DNA of 42,117 nt from a virus. Position numbers and translations under genes: made by a program. The notes below the pieces were generated by a model. It saw nothing but the letters and a program-made list of their open reading frames with translations. It searched no databases and was not told the origin of the DNA. Positions 8,821 to 26,909 of this stretch are shown piece by piece. How positions within the stretch are numbered: the stretch's first letter is position 1; each line of letters opens with the position of its first letter. The stretch spans positions 1 through 42,117 of IMG/VR virus record IMGVR_UViG_3300025326_000087. The stretch is one strand, 5' to 3'.

Positions 8821-10107
8821 TTGGAGATCCTTTTGTCGGAAATCAAATTCGACGATACAACTCGCGTCCGCACAGACCTGGGCGAGGAGTCTCTTCTCGA
8901 GCTGATCGAGTCGTTCAAAAACGTTGGTCAAATCACACCGATCGTTGTTGACCGCACACACAGATTGATTGCTGGTCGGCGTCGCCTAGAGGCAGCACGC
9001 CGCCTTTCCTGGTCTGCCATTCGGGCAGAGTATTTTGAAGACCTCGATCCCCTCACACAGAAGATCGTAGAATTTGACGAGAACTCCAAGCGTTTACAAT
9101 TAACTTGGCAGGAGGCCGCCCGTGCCATCAAAGAGATCCACGAGCTTAAGAAAGCAACGGAAGGGAACTGGAGTGCTTCTGACACAGCCCGAACCCTCGG
9201 CATCAGCATTGGGAAAGTGTCGGAAGACCTCCTTCTTGCATCTGCGTTGGACAACACGAGAGTTGTCGATCGACCCTCGCGCCGTGGAGCACTCACGACC
9301 GTCAAGCGCGAAAGGGAGCTTATCCTCGTAAGAGAGCTCGCTCGCCGTCGCGCTGTTGATCTTGGCGTAACCTCGGATCATTTAGTAGCCACAACCGGGG
9401 GGGTAATCTACAACGCGAGTTGTTTAGACATCTTGCGGGAGATGTCCGAAAACTCTGTCGACCTCGTCGTCACAGATCCACCTTGGGGCATCAATTTCGA
9501 CAAAGCCTCACAGTGGACGACTCACTGGATTGGTAGTTATGACGATAGGGAAGAGACTGTTCGTGCCACGCTGACGTGTGCGTTCCCACTCCTCTATCGC
9601 GTATTGAAACCTACTTGTCATCTCTACACGTTTTTTCCAATACAAGAGGCACAGTGGTGGGTTTCACTCATGACCGAGGCGGGCTTTATAGTACGACAGC
9701 GCCCACTCATCTGGTTTAAGACGGGGCAGATAGGGATCACTGACACCTACTCATCTTTTCTCCCCGTGTACGAAAGTATTCTGTGGGCCTTCAAACCTGG
9801 CGCTAATGACATTCGTCGACTCTTTTCTCGCGCTGTGCCAGAAGCACAAGGTTGGCCACGTGAACCTACAATCTGGCACGAAAACTCAAAGCCAACAGAG
9901 ATGCTCGGAAAATGGATAGAGAGCTCAAGCGAGGTAAATGAGATCGTTCTAGACCCTTTCAGTGGTGGAGGAAGCACGCTCGCCGCAGCTTTCGGTCTTG
10001 GTCGCTACTACATCGGATGTGAGCAAGACGCTGTACACTATACAAAGAGCTTGGAAAGGTTACGAAGTCTCGAGGAACGGAAAGATGAGGAAGTTGAAGA
10101 AGACTAA
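8821..10107 (+). CDS. ParB-domain DNA methyltransferase fusion
   Basis: A 428-residue fusion starting at TTG after GAAAGGAG. Residues 1-100 form a ParB/Srx domain (GQITPIVVD, then AGRRRLEAA at 51-59); residues 115-145 resemble the KorB/ParB helix-turn-helix. The C-terminal half is an N6-adenine or N4-cytosine methyltransferase: catalytic DPPW at 219-222, target-side KPTEMLGKWI at 357-366, and the AdoMet-binding DPFSGGGST at 378-386. The order DPPW before the AdoMet motif fits the beta class. No restriction enzyme is near, so it is an orphan methyltransferase, perhaps shielding phage DNA or marking sites bound by the ParB part. Confidence 0.88.
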   Translation: MEILLSEIKFDDTTRVRTDLGEESLLELIESFKNVGQITPIVVDRTHRLIAGRRRLEAARRLSWSAIRAEYFEDLDPLTQKIVEFDENSKRLQLTWQEAARAIKEIHELKKATEGNWSASDTARTLGISIGKVSEDLLLASALDNTRVVDRPSRRGALTTVKRERELILVRELARRRAVDLGVTSDHLVATTGGVIYNASCLDILREMSENSVDLVVTDPPWGINFDKASQWTTHWIGSYDDREETVRATLTCAFPLLYRVLKPTCHLYTFFPIQEAQWWVSLMTEAGFIVRQRPLIWFKTGQIGITDTYSSFLPVYESILWAFKPGANDIRRLFSRAVPEAQGWPREPTIWHENSKPTEMLGKWIESSSEVNEIVLDPFSGGGSTLAAAFGLGRYYIGCEQDAVHYTKSLERLRSLEERKDEEVEED

Positions 10108-10237
10108 CGCATGTATGTGGTGTGGCCAACTAGCGTACGCTACGTGTTGCTCTAAGAGTTGCGCGCAACGTTTGCGCCAGCACCAAGAATCAATGCGGCG
10201 CCGCGTACGCCACACAAAACGCATGGAGAATAGATGA
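10085..10237 (+). CDS. Small basic zinc-finger protein, 50 aa
   Basis: It begins inside the end of the methyltransferase gene. C10, C13, C22, C23 and C27 (CMWCGQLAYATCCSKSC) form a compact zinc site, followed by an Arg/Gln-rich helical tail (QRLRQHQESMRRR). It probably binds nucleic acid. The stop overlaps the start of the UDG-polymerase gene. Confidence 0.6.
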   Translation: MRKLKKTNACMWCGQLAYATCCSKSCAQRLRQHQESMRRRVRHTKRMENR

Positions 10238-11892
10238 CAACGCAAGTCCGACCTTCTGGTCCTCTAAATGCGAAGATCGCATTTGTCGGAATGGCCCCTG
10301 CAAGCGAAGAGATACGAACGGGCGTCCCATTTACAGGATCTGCTGGACGCATCCTTGACAAAGCTCTCTCACAGATAGGTGTCTCACGAAAGGATGTTTA
10401 TGTCACCAACATACACGACTCGTTTCTGGCACCTGGGACGTCTCTTTTTAGTTTACCGCAAGGGACTCTTACGACCTCGCTCGCGCGCCTTCGAGCTGAG
10501 TTGGAGAAGGTCAGGCCAAATGTCGTCGTCCCCCTGGGAGACGAGCCTCTCTATTTCCTGTGTAACCTTCGTGGTATTCAAAAATGGCGTGGCAGTATCT
10601 TATCATCCACGCTCATCCCAGGGCTGAAATGTGTGCCAACGGTACATCCTGCATGGATAGTTCGAGGAATGTGGAAGTGGGAACCTGTCTTTACACATAT
10701 CGATTTGGCGCGCGCCGTTGCCGAGGCAGCTTCACCAGAGATTAACCTTCCTACTCGCAATGCTATCACAGGACCCTCTCTTAACACCGTGCTTGATTAC
10801 ATACAGGAGTGCCACAAACATGATATCTTATCAGTTGACATTGAGGTGCAGGGCTACACAGAGAGTGGCGCAGGTGAAATTGCTTGTGTCGGAATTGGAT
10901 ATACTCCTAACGAAGCACTCTGCATCCCGTTTGTCAGGTCTGGCGGAGGCCCTTATTGGGGCGTGCCCGAAGAGTCTCGCATTTGGCGAGAACTTGCTCG
11001 ACTTCTGCAGAAACCCGGCCTTAGAAAAGTTGGTCAAAACCTCTCTTTTGAGTGGATTTACTTCTGGCTCCATCGAATTTACCCTGCCCGTATGTGGATC
11101 GACACAATGCTCCTGCACCATACTTTGTATCCTGATTTCGGCGGAACAGAGGATGTTTGGGGACGAAAGTCCCGAAAAGATGAACCCGGTCATTCCCTTG
11201 CCTTCATAAACTCACAGTACACAAAAACTCCATACTACAAAGATGATGGGCGTCGATGGTCTCCCCACCTTGGCGATCATGCTTTTTGGCGATACAACTG
11301 TATGGATGTCATGGTCACTCTTGAGTGTGCCTTCAAACTACAGGAAGAAGCACAAGCCGAAGGCTTGTGGGACTTTTATTGCGAATTTCACCAACGCCCG
11401 TTCATTCATTCTGCAAGAATGGAGTGGTTCGGCGTAGCGATCAATCTCGAGAAACGCGAACTTGCGCGTGTCGAACTCACAGCGCGCGCCGCGGAGTTGC
11501 AAGACCGCATTGACCAAAAGCTCGGTTATTCTCTAAATGTAAACAGTCCAAAGCAAATGACCACGCTTCTCTACAAAAATAAGGGCCTCAAGGTCCGTGT
11601 GAACAGAAAGACAAAACGCCCCACCGCCGATAAGGAAACGCTGCGTGTGTTTGCCGAGCAGACGCGAGACGAGGTCTTATTGTGGATACAAGAGCTAAGA
11701 CAAACACTTGATCTTAAAGGAGACATTGTGGACCAAAAGCTTGGCCCAGACAATCGAATGCACACGCACTATAAACAGGGTGGTACAGATTCCAATCGGT
11801 GGAGTAGCACACGCTCAATTCTCGGGACAGGTACGAATCTCCAGAATGTTCCACGTGATGGAATCGCACGTCACTTGTTTATTCCAGCATGA
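10234..11892 (+). CDS. UDG-like domain, 3'-5' exonuclease and N-terminal part of DNA polymerase A
   Basis: 552 residues with three parts. Residues 12-145 resemble family 4/5 uracil-DNA glycosylases (GMAPASEE at 19-26, PFTGSAGRIL at 32-41, VHPAW at 137-141) but the N-terminal CxxC of the iron-sulfur cluster is missing. Residues 195-400 are a DnaQ-type exonuclease: VDIE at 201-204, NLSFEW where Asp is usual (here Glu), and YNCMDV. From about 400 the family A polymerase follows up to TNLQNVPR and LFIPA, where the frame stops. In normal enzymes motif A (DYSQ) comes about 10 residues later; here it lies in the separate gene at 12040. The two products should form one polymerase. Confidence 0.85.
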   Translation: MTTQVRPSGPLNAKIAFVGMAPASEEIRTGVPFTGSAGRILDKALSQIGVSRKDVYVTNIHDSFLAPGTSLFSLPQGTLTTSLARLRAELEKVRPNVVVPLGDEPLYFLCNLRGIQKWRGSILSSTLIPGLKCVPTVHPAWIVRGMWKWEPVFTHIDLARAVAEAASPEINLPTRNAITGPSLNTVLDYIQECHKHDILSVDIEVQGYTESGAGEIACVGIGYTPNEALCIPFVRSGGGPYWGVPEESRIWRELARLLQKPGLRKVGQNLSFEWIYFWLHRIYPARMWIDTMLLHHTLYPDFGGTEDVWGRKSRKDEPGHSLAFINSQYTKTPYYKDDGRRWSPHLGDHAFWRYNCMDVMVTLECAFKLQEEAQAEGLWDFYCEFHQRPFIHSARMEWFGVAINLEKRELARVELTARAAELQDRIDQKLGYSLNVNSPKQMTTLLYKNKGLKVRVNRKTKRPTADKETLRVFAEQTRDEVLLWIQELRQTLDLKGDIVDQKLGPDNRMHTHYKQGGTDSNRWSSTRSILGTGTNLQNVPRDGIARHLFIPA

Positions 11893-12029
11893 CACGCTCT
11901 CAAATCTTCCCTTCGATTTTGATTGTTCTGGATCTTTGCGCGGCGTTTGTGTATGGCCTAGATGGTAACTGGCGTTTGTCAATCTATTGGCTCGCAGCAG
12001 CAGTTCTCACAGTCTGCGTGACCTTTTAG
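11889..12029 (+). CDS. Small two-span membrane peptide between the polymerase halves, 46 aa
   Basis: The ATG at 11889 overlaps the stop of the first polymerase gene (ATGA). The frame encodes two hydrophobic stretches (SILIVLDLCAAFVYGL and IYWLAAAVLTVCVTF) separated by a short polar turn, which fits a small hairpin membrane protein. It has no homing-endonuclease motif. It ends 10 bases before the second polymerase gene. The role is unknown; membrane attachment of replication or a holin-like activity are open guesses. Confidence 0.6.
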   Translation: MTRSQIFPSILIVLDLCAAFVYGLDGNWRLSIYWLAAAVLTVCVTF

Positions 12030-12039
12030 GAAGAGAAAC

Positions 12040-12843
12040 ATGAAAATGGTCTTTCTCTTCGCCGACTACTCACAGGCTGAGGCTCGCGTCGTCGCCTGGG
12101 CAGGACCAATCCCCCCCATGAGAACATGGTTTCGCACAGGTGAAGATATTCACTTAAATGTTGCCAAACTCATAGGTCGTGCTGTGTACGAGCACAAACT
12201 TCAGATGCCTCATGGCCTCTGGAGTAAACCCTGGGAGGATTTAGTGAAGAAAGACCCAGAACGGCAGGTCGCTAAGAATACTGTGCATGGTAACAACTAT
12301 GATATGGGTCCCCAGAAATTCGGTTACATAACTGGGCTTCCATTCAAGCACGCGCGTCTCGTACAGGATATTTACCACCAACTCTTTCCAGAGATCCGCG
12401 GTAACTATCACCGATGGATTAAAGAGTCTCTCAAGCAAAATCGGACACTCCAGAACCCCTGGGATTGGAAACGCACCTTCTACGATATTTATGGCCCGGA
12501 GCTCGAGCGTGCTGCCTATGCGTGGTATCCACAATCGACAATCGGCCTACTAACAATTCGTACTCTTGTTAGGTGTTGTGAGGTCTTCAAGAAAGAACTT
12601 CCAGAAAGTCTCTTGTTAACACCCACAAATATTCGGCGGATGGGTATGGACGTCCAATTACAATTACACGATAATATTGGCGTGTCTCTCCCAGACGATT
12701 CAACACTCATCAGGGATGCGGCGCGACGTATTAAAGAGATCGGCGAGTATCCATTGATGATAAAGGGAGAAGAACTTGTCATCCCAATGGACTTCAAGGT
12801 TGGCCCCTCTTGGGGTGACCAAAAAGATTACTATGTGGACTAG
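12040..12843 (+). CDS. C-terminal part of DNA polymerase A (motifs A, B, C)
   Basis: 267 residues starting after TAGGAAGAGAAAC. Motif A is FADYSQAEAR (residues 7-16) right at the N-terminus; motif B R75, K79 and Y87 (RQVAKNTVHGNNYD); motif C LQLHDNIG (207-214), with both catalytic Asp (D9 and D211) present and Asn in place of the common Glu. It completes the polymerase begun in the gene at 10234. The two frames are in phase, with 147 bases between them. The gene has its own ribosome site, so a two-subunit enzyme is expected. Confidence 0.87.
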   Translation: MKMVFLFADYSQAEARVVAWAGPIPPMRTWFRTGEDIHLNVAKLIGRAVYEHKLQMPHGLWSKPWEDLVKKDPERQVAKNTVHGNNYDMGPQKFGYITGLPFKHARLVQDIYHQLFPEIRGNYHRWIKESLKQNRTLQNPWDWKRTFYDIYGPELERAAYAWYPQSTIGLLTIRTLVRCCEVFKKELPESLLLTPTNIRRMGMDVQLQLHDNIGVSLPDDSTLIRDAARRIKEIGEYPLMIKGEELVIPMDFKVGPSWGDQKDYYVD

Positions 12844-12848
12844 ACTCT

Positions 12849-14039
12849 ATGAGAAAGCTTGATAATTGGATTGACGCGTATCTTGAGTATACACAGAAAC
12901 AAGAGAGTCCAGAAAAGCTGCATTTTTGGGTGGCCGTCTCACTCATAAGCGCCGCAATCAAGAGACAGGTGTGGATGGATCGAGGTTACTATAAGCTCTA
13001 TCCAAACACTTTTGTACTGATTGTGGCGGAGAGCGCCCGTGTTCGAAAGTCTGTAGCTATAGACATCGGAATGACCCTTGTACGCGCCGCGGTTCCGGAT
13101 CTTTATTACATCACAGGCACACTCACACCTGAGGGCCTTGTGAAACATATGAACAGAGTAAAGGTCAACACGAATGAAGTGGGCAAAGCGCGCGTGCAAT
13201 ATGACAGTCATGTTCTCATACACGCTGACGAATTGGCAGAGTTGTTCGGGTATGATCGACAGCGTGCCTCCAAATTGACAATTCTACTTACTAAGATTTA
13301 CGGCTCGCAAAGAGAGCACATGCACACACTCGCCTCGGAGGGGCAAATACTATTAAGAAATCTATATCCAACACTACTCGCAGCAACCGATCCCCGGAAT
13401 TTGAAGGTTCTACCAGAGGAGGCCGTTGCGGGCCTCATTGGAAGACTAATTTTCGTAACCGCCAGAGACAGACGCCATGTAGTAGCGTGGCCACAACCAG
13501 GAGAACATGAGCAGGAACTCTACGAGACGCTCGTAGAAGATTTATTTGAAATTAGCCAACTTCGAGGTGAGATTGTACCAACAGCAGACGCACGTGCGTT
13601 TTTCAAGGATTGGTACGTTGGCCGCGCAGACACAAAGATCGAAGACCCGCGTATCGACGCTTTCAATGAACGATGCCATGACACTACTCTAAAGTTAGCC
13701 ACAATTTTCGCACTTGCCGCAGGCGACACGCTTATCGTAACGCTTGACCAAATGAAGCGTGGGATCGAATACGTCGAGCGACAAATACCAGAATTCTCCC
13801 ATGTCATGAATTGGGCGGCTTCCTCTACTTACGCCCAGAACAGAGCCAAGTTTATTGACATGTTAAGACGTCAGGGAGGCGTAGGTATGCGTCGCCAGGC
13901 TCTGAAGATGATGGTGCTACCGCTGGAAGAGATCCTCGTGCTCGAGAACTCTCTCGAGCACGAAGGAACGATCACGACGCGAGTTACGGGAAATAACGTC
14001 TTCTACAAATTATCGAAAGATGAGCTCCTCAAAGAATAA
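12849..14039 (+). CDS. DUF3987-type primase/helicase-like ATPase
   Basis: 396 residues with the features of DUF3987/YfjI-like phage proteins: an N-terminal helical part (HFWVAVSLISAAIKRQVW), a P-loop variant VAESARVRKS in place of the usual GxxxxGKS, and a Walker B HADEL followed by further helicase-like blocks (LLAATDP, GLIGRLIFVTA). Such proteins often stand next to phage polymerases and are thought to unwind or prime at the fork. The C-terminal 70 residues resemble a winged-helix. It is the last gene of the left arm. Confidence 0.75.
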   Translation: MRKLDNWIDAYLEYTQKQESPEKLHFWVAVSLISAAIKRQVWMDRGYYKLYPNTFVLIVAESARVRKSVAIDIGMTLVRAAVPDLYYITGTLTPEGLVKHMNRVKVNTNEVGKARVQYDSHVLIHADELAELFGYDRQRASKLTILLTKIYGSQREHMHTLASEGQILLRNLYPTLLAATDPRNLKVLPEEAVAGLIGRLIFVTARDRRHVVAWPQPGEHEQELYETLVEDLFEISQLRGEIVPTADARAFFKDWYVGRADTKIEDPRIDAFNERCHDTTLKLATIFALAAGDTLIVTLDQMKRGIEYVERQIPEFSHVMNWAASSTYAQNRAKFIDMLRRQGGVGMRRQALKMMVLPLEEILVLENSLEHEGTITTRVTGNNVFYKLSKDELLKE

Positions 14040-23827: not shown

Positions 23828-25441
23828 CTAGTCATGATCACCCGTAGACAACGTACCGAACAACGCCAGAAGTGTCATCGGGTACGGTTCGATTTGTTCA
23901 ACTGTAATCCGTCCCTCAGTACCCCACGCTTGGCCCGTAACCTTTCGATCACCAGTGAACAATTCCAAAGCGTCTAGGTCCGACCCAGGATATTGAATAA
24001 GTTCACCATTGACACGACCACCAATCGTATTACGAAGACGTGCCCATAGTGTGTCCCAACTACGAGGAAGACCTTCAATAACAGCACCTTCAAAAGCTGG
24101 GCGCATTGTGGTAGCTTTACTGTCATAGTGAAGACCAACCTCTACACGACAGTAGTCCGCGTCTAATGTAATCGTTCCAGAGGTCACAGTAAACGTGCCC
24201 CTGTATGCACCATCAGCAACAACATCGACAATCTCGCCCTCAAGATGCTCAAGTCCCGTGACCTGGTTTGATGGTTGTGCGTTAATACGCACAACAGCGC
24301 AGTCTGTTTGAAGGGAGCGCCAAGAACGACCAAGGTCAAGACTATCTTCAAAGTATTCAATGTATCGTTGCACAGAACTTTGAACTGTGCGTTTTACGAT
24401 AGCCCACACTTGATCAGGCCCTCCACCAGCTCGCGGTATAATAGCAACAGCCTCGAACAGACCATCAGTTATGATACGGGTAAAACCTATGACTTTTTCG
24501 TGCACAAAGAATGTAAGCGCGATGAGTTGACCATCCTCACGTACGAGGTAGACTCGTGGATCAGGGCGCGTCGAATAAGCGATTGATCCAAGTTTAATAC
24601 CGCGAGCAGATGCGCTTAAAACTGGATCACAGGGACCTGCTGGTGGGGAAGCGTCGCGGAAAAAGTAGTATGGGTCAGCGTACAACTTTCCCGGGATGTC
24701 ACTAGTAGCGGGTAGAAACTCGTTGAGTTCGTACCAATACTCAAAGTCCGATGTCGCTGCGTTCGGATGCCCAACGAGTCCGAGAGTATCTGGCGCGTCA
24801 CCAGGGCTTAACGGATTGTCGTGTGTCGCTTTGCTTGCAATGAGCACCCCATTGTCCCAGATGCGAATGCCCACAGTGGGATCTGTTCCCGTGCCATCAC
24901 TCCATGACACCACAATGGCATGCCAGATATCCATTAAGCTTGTGGTCGCATTGCCGTCAAGCGAATCGGCACCCGTAGTCGGCGGCGACGTTCGCGGCCC
25001 AAAATTGACGGCGATTACCGGATCGGTGGTGATGCCATCCTCTGCTGATGCTTGAATGGTGAATTGCGCTAAACCTGCACGAGCATTGTAGAATGCAGTC
25101 CGGCCATCGCTTCCACCTGCTGGCCCCGTAAATCGCTGCGCCCATGCGATCGTCCGACGGTGCGGGTCCATGGTCGCTAGCACAGTGGATGGTAGGCCCA
25201 CGCCGCGCGCGCCATCCACCCCACCTCCATTCATGTTAATGCCCCATGACTGCCATGTGGTGGCCCCAAACGTTCCCGGAACAAACGTATTAATGTCTCC
25301 AGGAAGCCGACTGACATATTCAAGAGTCGTAACAGGATCTTCGCCTTGGATCAATGGGCAGCATCCGACGAGAGACGCAGGTGCGAGTGCCCAGTTTATT
25401 AGCTTTTTTGGTACGGGTTTCGGTTGCAACGTGTAGGGCAC
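23828..25441 (-). CDS. LamG-like domain fused to the C-terminal half of the tail nozzle (gp12-like)
   Basis: 537 residues starting at GTG right after the stop of the nozzle N-half. Residues about 25-270 look like a concanavalin A/LamG-type jelly roll (TIAWAQRF, WHAIVVSWSDGT, IRIWDNGVLIASK, WYELNEFLP). From residue 280 the sequence reads as the second half of T7 gp12-like nozzles: GSIAYSTRPDPRVYLV, REDGQLIALTF and VWAIVKRTV with RYIEYF. Added to the 488 residues upstream, the nozzle parts total about 745, near the 794 of T7 gp12. The LamG part is richer in G+C, which points to insertion. The start is coupled to the previous stop (GGAGAATAGTGTG). Confidence 0.75.
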   Translation of the reverse strand: MPYTLQPKPVPKKLINWALAPASLVGCCPLIQGEDPVTTLEYVSRLPGDINTFVPGTFGATTWQSWGINMNGGGVDGARGVGLPSTVLATMDPHRRTIAWAQRFTGPAGGSDGRTAFYNARAGLAQFTIQASAEDGITTDPVIAVNFGPRTSPPTTGADSLDGNATTSLMDIWHAIVVSWSDGTGTDPTVGIRIWDNGVLIASKATHDNPLSPGDAPDTLGLVGHPNAATSDFEYWYELNEFLPATSDIPGKLYADPYYFFRDASPPAGPCDPVLSASARGIKLGSIAYSTRPDPRVYLVREDGQLIALTFFVHEKVIGFTRIITDGLFEAVAIIPRAGGGPDQVWAIVKRTVQSSVQRYIEYFEDSLDLGRSWRSLQTDCAVVRINAQPSNQVTGLEHLEGEIVDVVADGAYRGTFTVTSGTITLDADYCRVEVGLHYDSKATTMRPAFEGAVIEGLPRSWDTLWARLRNTIGGRVNGELIQYPGSDLDALELFTGDRKVTGQAWGTEGRITVEQIEPYPMTLLALFGTLSTGDHD

Positions 25442-25442
25442 A

Positions 25443-26909
25443 CTATTCTCCTGTTATGTGATCAGCTATGCCTGTAACTTCGATTGCTTTGTAACTATCT
25501 TCGGCAAAATCAAAGGCCAATGCGAAGATTTTTCGGCGGCTCCTATCTATAAATAGAAGTCTGTCACTAGTAACTATAGGCTGAATAGGCGCGCTCCCCT
25601 CAGAGGAAACTTTCCTAATTGCAGGAACGATATCTCCCCCAAAAGGTTCACCTGTCTTTCCACTGTCTGCCTTGAACTCCGCACCGGCTGTACCAAGAAA
25701 CAAACCACCATGATCTGCGATCCATTCAACGCGATTCACCCGGCGCGCGGCGATTGTATACTCAATCGCGTTATCAGCTTTTGTACCGATTGCGTAATTA
25801 TCAAAATCATCAGAAGCAGACATCCAGAAGGTTGTGGGTTGTTTTTTTGTCGATGCTTGGGTAAGACGTCCTTGCGAGAATTCACCTGTCCGAGGGTAAC
25901 CATTCGCAAGACTCCACGAGATCTCTTCAAGTGTCCACGCACCTGCGGGTGATGCAGCAGGATTTGCGTCCGTTACGGACATTACACTCTGGATGGTTCC
26001 CTTGAGTTGTGTAACAGAGTCAAACGTGGTAATCTTCACAAGACCACCATAGATTATCACGTATTTATTAACGTCTACAGAACGAAATGCTGGCTTGTCA
26101 GCCACAAGCGTCACTTGTGCACCTACAGGCTCTTTTTTGTCAGGATCAAGCGCCGCTTGTGGTGAGAGACGTAACAACCAACCAGACAATGCGCCAGACG
26201 TGAACGCATCTAGAATGTCTGCTCGCACATGGTCATTTGGTGATGCAGTATCCCCAGCACTCGCGCCAAATGCGGTGATGATTGCACGCGCCGCGCCGTG
26301 TATAATAATACGACCAACATCACCCTCCAAAAATACGGCAGCAGACGCGGTGAATATCACACCATTGCCGGTCAATGTCGCGGGCGTGATCGTAGCAGCG
26401 CCCGACACATCAGTATCAGCCTCAAACGAGGGAGGCGTCTGATAGCTAATTGGGCTTAATGACCAATTAGTGTCTGAGACGCGACTCAGACGTTGCTGTG
26501 GGTGGTCAGGATGAAATAGAAAAAGAACATCAGCCGATTGTGTATAATGAATGTTGCGCAGATCGGCCGCAGCGTATGGATTAGTAACCTCAACAGGAAC
26601 CTCACTTCCCGCATAGGTAAGACGTTGACCATTCTTGTAGAAACGACAGTAACCCACGCCCACCTCGATAACAAAAGCATCATCGACACTAAATTCAAAC
26701 GGAATCAGGATCGTATCTTGTGAGGAATTTTTTACCTCTGCAACAAAACGAGTACCGGGACGTCTGGTGATTCCACCTTGGCGAAGCAATAGCCAATTCT
26801 CAAGAGTTTGGCAACCCTCGAAATAGGCAGCAAGATCAGGACGACCCTCAAGGTTTGGTGAAAGTTCACCTTTAGAGAAGTTCGTGAGGATGCGGCGCGG
26901 CTTCGCCAT
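25443..26909 (-). CDS. Tail nozzle protein, N-terminal half (gp12-like)
   Basis: 488 residues. The N-terminus has the hallmark of the family, NFSKGELSPNLEGRPDL followed by GGITRRPGTRFV. The middle holds beta-rich repeats; the end (TSDRLLFIDRSRRKIFAL and ADHITGE) is where homologues continue into a second half that is here in the next gene. The nozzle closes the tail tip and opens on infection. The ribosome site for the next gene is inside the last codons of this one. Confidence 0.82.
   Translation of the reverse strand: MAKPRRILTNFSKGELSPNLEGRPDLAAYFEGCQTLENWLLLRQGGITRRPGTRFVAEVKNSSQDTILIPFEFSVDDAFVIEVGVGYCRFYKNGQRLTYAGSEVPVEVTNPYAAADLRNIHYTQSADVLFLFHPDHPQQRLSRVSDTNWSLSPISYQTPPSFEADTDVSGAATITPATLTGNGVIFTASAAVFLEGDVGRIIIHGAARAIITAFGASAGDTASPNDHVRADILDAFTSGALSGWLLRLSPQAALDPDKKEPVGAQVTLVADKPAFRSVDVNKYVIIYGGLVKITTFDSVTQLKGTIQSVMSVTDANPAASPAGAWTLEEISWSLANGYPRTGEFSQGRLTQASTKKQPTTFWMSASDDFDNYAIGTKADNAIEYTIAARRVNRVEWIADHGGLFLGTAGAEFKADSGKTGEPFGGDIVPAIRKVSSEGSAPIQPIVTSDRLLFIDRSRRKIFALAFDFAEDSYKAIEVTGIADHITGE

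Follow-up and report, generated by a model that had tools for sequence, protein, structure and literature searches.

A phage family A DNA polymerase encoded by two genes that part at the turn before motif A

Family A DNA polymerases are normally built as one chain, with a continuous catalytic palm. In IMG/VR virus record IMGVR_UViG_3300025326_000087, whose whole stretch of 42,117 nucleotides (positions 1 to 42,117) was analysed and is called here the window, such an enzyme is encoded by two genes with a small gene for a membrane peptide between them. Divided replication genes have been described in other phages. For example, in T4-type phages the insertion of a homing endonuclease created two-gene enzymes that are still active, and the products of 43A and 43B purify together and show activity (PMC2988022). 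Like the window, T4-type gp43A/43B and Aeh1 nrdA have an essential phage replication gene in two coding parts, although they code for a family B polymerase or a ribonucleotide reductase, have an endonuclease or an untranslated insert in the gap, and share no homology with it (PMC2988022). Another example is the DNA polymerase gamma of Microcystis phage Mic1, also a family A enzyme annotated as two open reading frames (ORFs) with a break at motif A (PMC7156551); in this phage, however, a group I intron lies within motif A and one spliced product is expected. A parallel at the same turn as in the window is the ORF13/14/15 polymerase arrangement of MEP401 and MEP402, phages of OM43 bacteria, for which the authors suggested an intron (PMC10580990). 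These phages share with the window a family A polymerase in two genes, a small gene between them and a break in the same turn, but they lack the uracil-DNA glycosylase (UDG) domain, belong to a separate clade with a separate origin of the split, and have an unrelated gene in the gap. With MEP401 as a published parallel at this turn, and the T4-type 43A/43B as a further precedent for a divided polymerase, the arrangement of the window is a variant of one already known.

The first polymerase gene of the window (N gene; 10234–11892, plus strand) codes for 552 amino acids ending in RHLFIPA*, which comprise the UDG, the 3'-5' exonuclease, the thumb and the first part of the palm of a family A DNA polymerase. 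The second (C gene; 12040–12843, plus strand) codes for 267 amino acids, begins MKMVFLFADYSQAEAR and contains motifs A, B and C. Pfam profiles identify a family-4-like UDG at residues 8–145 of the N part (1.8e-20), the 3'-5' exonuclease at residues 186–372 (3e-7) and positions 8–133 of the DNA_pol_A profile (6.8e-13), positions 152–380 of which are matched by the C part (3.2e-13); the N gene also covers positions 479–1002 of PHROG 17. Motif A reads DYSQAEAR, motif B is represented by R75 and K79, and motif C by H210 and D211. The residues that mark a polymerase of the PHROG 17 type (D9, R75, K79, H210 and D211 of the C part) are invariant in four phages, and D202 and E204 of Exo I are invariant in the N part, where both the UDG and the exonuclease domains are present. 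Between the halves lies a gap of 147 nucleotides (nt; 11893–12039, plus strand) with a gene for a 46-amino-acid, two-span membrane peptide (11889–12029, plus strand). The start of this gene overlaps the N-gene stop (ATGA), and the C-gene start follows 10 nt past the stop of the peptide gene, with a Shine-Dalgarno-like AGGA (12028–12031, plus strand) 8 nt ahead of the ATG. A preliminary description of this region, made from the letters alone, had given the coordinates of the three genes (10234–12843) correctly; it had also rightly recognized two polymerase genes with starts and catalytic residues of their own, a coupled 46-codon membrane-peptide gene between them, and a gap free of any homing endonuclease.

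An alignment of 27 polymerases, the set also used for the tree, places the break precisely. The N part ends with one strand of the palm and the C part opens with the next, which bears the catalytic aspartate; the junction LFIPA / MKMVFLFADYSQ aligns with MFVADEGKVFIEADLSQ of an unsplit relative (L005), and the halves meet in the beta-turn before motif A. To judge by this alignment no residue is missing at the break, and the ten or so residues that had been placed between the two end points were an overstatement. Nor does an in-frame insertion, which the preliminary description thought likely, agree with the data, since the same-phase frame between the halves contains four stops (three TGA and one TAG), the first of them the N-gene stop itself. 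Read-through in that frame is ruled out by these stops. Other phases are found in the relatives described below, so that the in-phase distance of 147 nt in the window is due to chance. An assembly error, which was also to be checked, is excluded because a near-identical second assembly, IMGVR 3300025164_000436, has the same junction; it equals the window over 13.6 kb save for 7 changes, all at 12844–12863. These changes are confined to 20 nt spanning the C-gene stop and the start of the primase gene, and those in primase codons look synonymous.

The same break has been kept in diverged phages. Three viral contigs (L003, L004 and L015) are broken at the same residue as the window, to which L003 is 74% identical in the N part and 62–63% in the C part, L004 56–57% and 50–54%, respectively, and L015, a partial contig cut short at its upstream side, 58% in the C part (N identities are taken only from full-length N parts). 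Their gaps measure 160, 617 and 77 nt, respectively, versus 147 nt in the window, and hold a 50-codon ORF in L003, three ORFs of 103, 56 and 63 codons in L004, and a short Cys-rich ORF in L015; in none of the three are the halves in phase (gap lengths modulo 3: 1, 2 and 2). The same break combined with differing gaps and frames argues that the split is old and selected, and no error. The ratio of nonsynonymous to synonymous change (pN/pS) is 0.26–0.40 for the N part and 0.31–0.41 for the C part, with synonymous sites near saturation, and both halves are on these values under purifying selection. In all 8 cases measured, the start of the C gene overlaps the preceding ORF or sits at most 10 nt from it. 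The window and its relatives form a clade with support of 100/100 in the tree, and the arrangement is that of a gene in pieces, with two presumably translated genes that have their own starts, jointly make up a whole enzyme and are kept in relatives. A scan of the genome collection with the C part found no relative. Pfam and PHROG searches with the small genes of the gaps returned nothing, with three exceptions: an endonuclease in L203 and, in phage VS-ABTNL-3, PHROGs without a known function (both discussed below), together with a single Pfam match in L004 that stayed below threshold.

The turn has also been broken outside this clade. The alignment locates the break of MEP401 and MEP402 at this very turn (LFLSRYGE* / MILNADAKALEW), and the same break was found in MW202697, MW202796 and Alcaligenes phage QDWS535. 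In QDWS535 the halves overlap by 1 nt and there is no cargo, so that no insert is left; in MW202796 they stand 3.6 kb and seven genes apart, a distance that makes the intron proposed for the MEP401 lineage implausible there. These five enzymes form one clade (100/99). The hypothesis that all enzymes with a break at this turn make up one clade is rejected (approximately unbiased test, p_AU 2.5e-6). On this phylogeny the turn before motif A has been broken twice independently, the window type having no common descent with the MEP401 clade. An apparent loss of the motif A aspartate in MW202697 was dismissed, as by eye the record has an apparent frameshift in a run of A there. A DNA-pattern scan for ATGA shortly ahead of motif A gave at least 120 stretches and, among the matches listed, one more candidate of the same break besides the window's phage. 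In this contig (L051, 1–2483) the N part of a PolA, with an intein in its T-G-R-L-A-S region, is split before motif A; within the gap are two ORFs, one lipoprotein-like and one of 47 codons for a one-span membrane protein; the C part begins with MNISYVGIDYSQ and runs off the contig end. It is possibly a third case of a break at this turn. In another match, L031, the interruption is of an ordinary kind, contains an HNH and lies about 45 codons farther upstream. Breaks within the palm had been called rare in the preliminary description, and rare they are; yet at this turn they are recurrent, in the window clade and in the MEP401 lineage.

It is highly probable, in our judgement, that the polymerase of the window is a two-subunit enzyme, as the preliminary description had expected from the sequence, and that its halves are translated separately and come together non-covalently. 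One polycistronic mRNA would give rise to a UDG-exonuclease-family A replicative polymerase as two polypeptides, with translation handed from the N gene to the small gene and then to the C gene by means of overlapping or close stop and start codons; such coupling would hold the halves at near equal amounts. Because the break sits in an exposed turn between paired strands (LFIPA / MKMVFLFADYS), the halves would join non-covalently across the palm sheet into one active enzyme endowed with exonuclease and UDG. The gap would be a permissive site where small genes come and go, that of the window being the 46-amino-acid membrane peptide. As for how the split arose, a mobile element, likeliest a homing endonuclease targeting the conserved motif A sequence, may have inserted, been lost later and been replaced by small genes, an origin weakly supported by analogy and by the endonuclease gene in the gap of L203. 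Compatibility with a single enzyme has been examined with AlphaFold on a read-through chain of 869 amino acids, in which stops were treated as residues, positions 554–602 formed an artificial linker of 49 residues, and nine alignment rows, unsplit relatives included, were supplied. Both halves were predicted with fair to good confidence and the linker as disordered (pTM, the predicted TM-score, 0.73), giving one Klenow-type fold; structural comparison of the model gives E 2e-27 with Klenow and a TM-score by target of about 0.8 with Bst polymerase, the matches covering some 720 columns that extend across both halves.

Some considerations weigh against the two-subunit enzyme. With joined chains and nine rows, the predicted fold would speak for compatibility, not for assembly or activity; coupled re-initiation is an interpretation of the spacing; and assembly and activity of the subunits are predictions made from sequence. 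Against the proposed origin of the split, no homing endonuclease was found in the gaps of the window, L003, L004 and L015. The alternatives fare worse. It is scarcely conceivable that the locus is a broken gene or an assembly artefact: frameshifts can occur in phage metagenome contigs, but this one has a near-identical second assembly, four diverged phages have the same break with intact catalytic residues, purifying selection acts on both halves, and no further polymerase gene was recognized among the window proteins scanned, in a search that was not exhaustive. That an undetected intron, trans-splicing or a split intein unites the halves into one polypeptide is also very unlikely. Phage polymerase genes often contain group I introns, and to that of Mic1 within motif A can be added the one suggested by the MEP401 authors (PMC10580990). 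On the other hand, gaps of 77–160 nt leave too little room for a group I intron of usual size, the C genes possess coupled starts of their own, the gaps of the parallel lineage go from -1 nt in QDWS535 to 3.6 kb with seven genes in MW202796, and no intein block is seen at the ends of the halves. No group I or II intron, nor any other Rfam match, was found in the window (its gap included), L003, L004, L015 or MEP401. As a positive control, the same resource finds the Mic1 intron (RF00028, E 1e-9) inside the motif A codons (GADVDS), at 45.5 bits; as the curated cut-off is slightly higher (50), the match depends on a permissive threshold, which was applied to the window junction, not to the relatives. 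The stability of the gap RNA was unremarkable against shuffles (z -0.08).

Other phage enzymes are split at other places. In the UDG-exo-PolA of Caulobacter phage Kuura and of the loci L203, L210 and L216, the break falls within the exonuclease domain. These phages resemble the window in their UDG-exo-PolA and in the small genes of the gap, and L203, L210 and L216 even have a peptide of the same family, but the break lies in the exonuclease domain instead of the palm and they form a separate clade. The gap of L203 contains, in addition to the peptide, an endonuclease gene of PHROG 5046 (E 1e-16), which is named HNH there yet has a LAGLIDADG-like LAGLLEGEGSF. A split UDG-exo-PolA is also found in a cultured phage, Vibrio phage VS-ABTNL-3 (L163, MF497422; 3001–6135), with the break about 30 residues earlier (after NLQNLPKGDG) and a 184-codon gene between the parts. 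In MW202554 (L148; 1727–4364), the UDG-exonuclease and the polymerase are in two genes 151 nt apart, the break lying between exonuclease and thumb.

The peptide itself has led to an undescribed but widespread family of small phage proteins. Tunturiibacter phage Tunturi_5 has an unannotated 46-codon ORF, 39% identical and with a GTGA overlap, between two unrelated genes. The family comprises 103 loci (L175–L277) in 73 clusters, namely 70 viral loci from a scan with the window and Tunturi_5 sequences, one of them from the second assembly of the window's phage, and 33 loci from a scan of genome contigs, in metagenome-assembled genomes of planctomycetes, Clostridia, Geobacteraceae and other groups; in the sole annotated record having a member, it is unannotated. 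The members are two-span peptides of 44–55 amino acids with the pattern FPTxLIxLDVxAAxxY...DWRxxIYWLAAAVLTxxVTF, and are under purifying selection (pN about 0.25–0.3 versus pS about 0.8); Pfam and PHROG gave no clear family. An overlap with the stop of the preceding gene is frequent and amounts to exactly four bases in 20 of 65 loci. The adjacent genes differ from locus to locus (RusA, helicase, terminase, replication initiation, unknowns), and a scan of them for a constant partner gene found none. A PolA gene is present within about 3 kb in 6 of the 103 loci. In four of these six the peptide occupies the gap of a split polymerase (the window, L203, L210 and L216, which represent two break types); in L185 and L194 the peptide stands directly behind an unsplit polymerase.

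To judge from this distribution, the peptide gene is a minigene that travels and has come to lie in split-polymerase gaps of two kinds, which may reflect a function or simply a permissive site; it is no part of the split as such, because relatives lack it. The four loci inside split polymerases are suggestive, not proof, of a role in the replisome. It seems unlikely that the peptide functions as a partner of the polymerase, such as a membrane anchor of the replisome, with the gap position under selection for it. Four of the six PolA-near loci being gap positions of two break types, the pair behind unsplit polymerases and the purifying selection would all fit such a role; yet split polymerases exist without the peptide (L003, L004, the partial contig L015 and Kuura), most of the family adjoins unrelated genes, L203, L210 and L216 are one clade and may stem from a single acquisition, and the arrangement was the reason why the window was chosen. 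The absence of the peptide from L003, L004 and L015 and the unrelated neighbours of most members likewise speak against regarding its partnership with the enzyme as established. The membrane tether imagined in the preliminary description may or may not hold; the same peptide family occupies the gap of three other polymerases, split at another site. Quite unlikely is the more specific proposal of a small membrane subunit of phage family A polymerases, recruited at least twice into gaps (at the palm turn and, in L203, L210 and L216, in the exonuclease domain), coupled with both subunits and tying replication to the membrane.

The surroundings of the split polymerase are conserved. Profile matches identify a ParB-N/DNA methyltransferase fusion upstream (8821–10107, plus strand), which is syntenic in L003, L004 and L005, and a DUF3987/phage primase downstream (12849–14039, plus strand), syntenic in L003, L004, L015 and L005. 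Unsplit UDG-exo-PolA enzymes (MW202489, Desulfofustis phage LS06-2018-MD01, Microcystis phage Mel-JY34 and L005) have the domains of the window and the same order of methyltransferase, polymerase and DUF3987 primase, but in a single continuous polymerase gene. By eye, the place of Klenow F762 is taken by His in the window (H83 of the C part, 12286–12288), and likewise in unsplit relatives of the UDG lineage. Also by eye, the Exo II aspartate is replaced by Glu in the window clade (NLSFE, NLAFE; E273 of the N part, 11050–11052), L005 having NAQFD; proofreading may differ. The window contains a second split gene, for a PHROG 376 tail protein, in two parts on the minus strand (25446–26909 and 23831–25441; profile positions 1–445 and 452–711, respectively). 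The second of these has about 270 extra N-terminal residues, and the phages of L003 and L004 (G003 and G004) have one frame of 745–753 amino acids.

Two unrelated phage lineages have thus cut the same turn of the palm and stayed cut, with small genes settling in the gap. Through the gene in the gap of the window a family of tiny membrane proteins has come to light, which is strongly conserved in phages of many hosts and has no clear counterpart in Pfam and PHROGs; this family and its recurrence within split polymerases deserve the most interest. The turn would mark a place where nature permits a split, a single strand away from the catalytic aspartate and of use for controllable split polymerases, and the arrangement suggests a route from a one-chain to a two-subunit enzyme.
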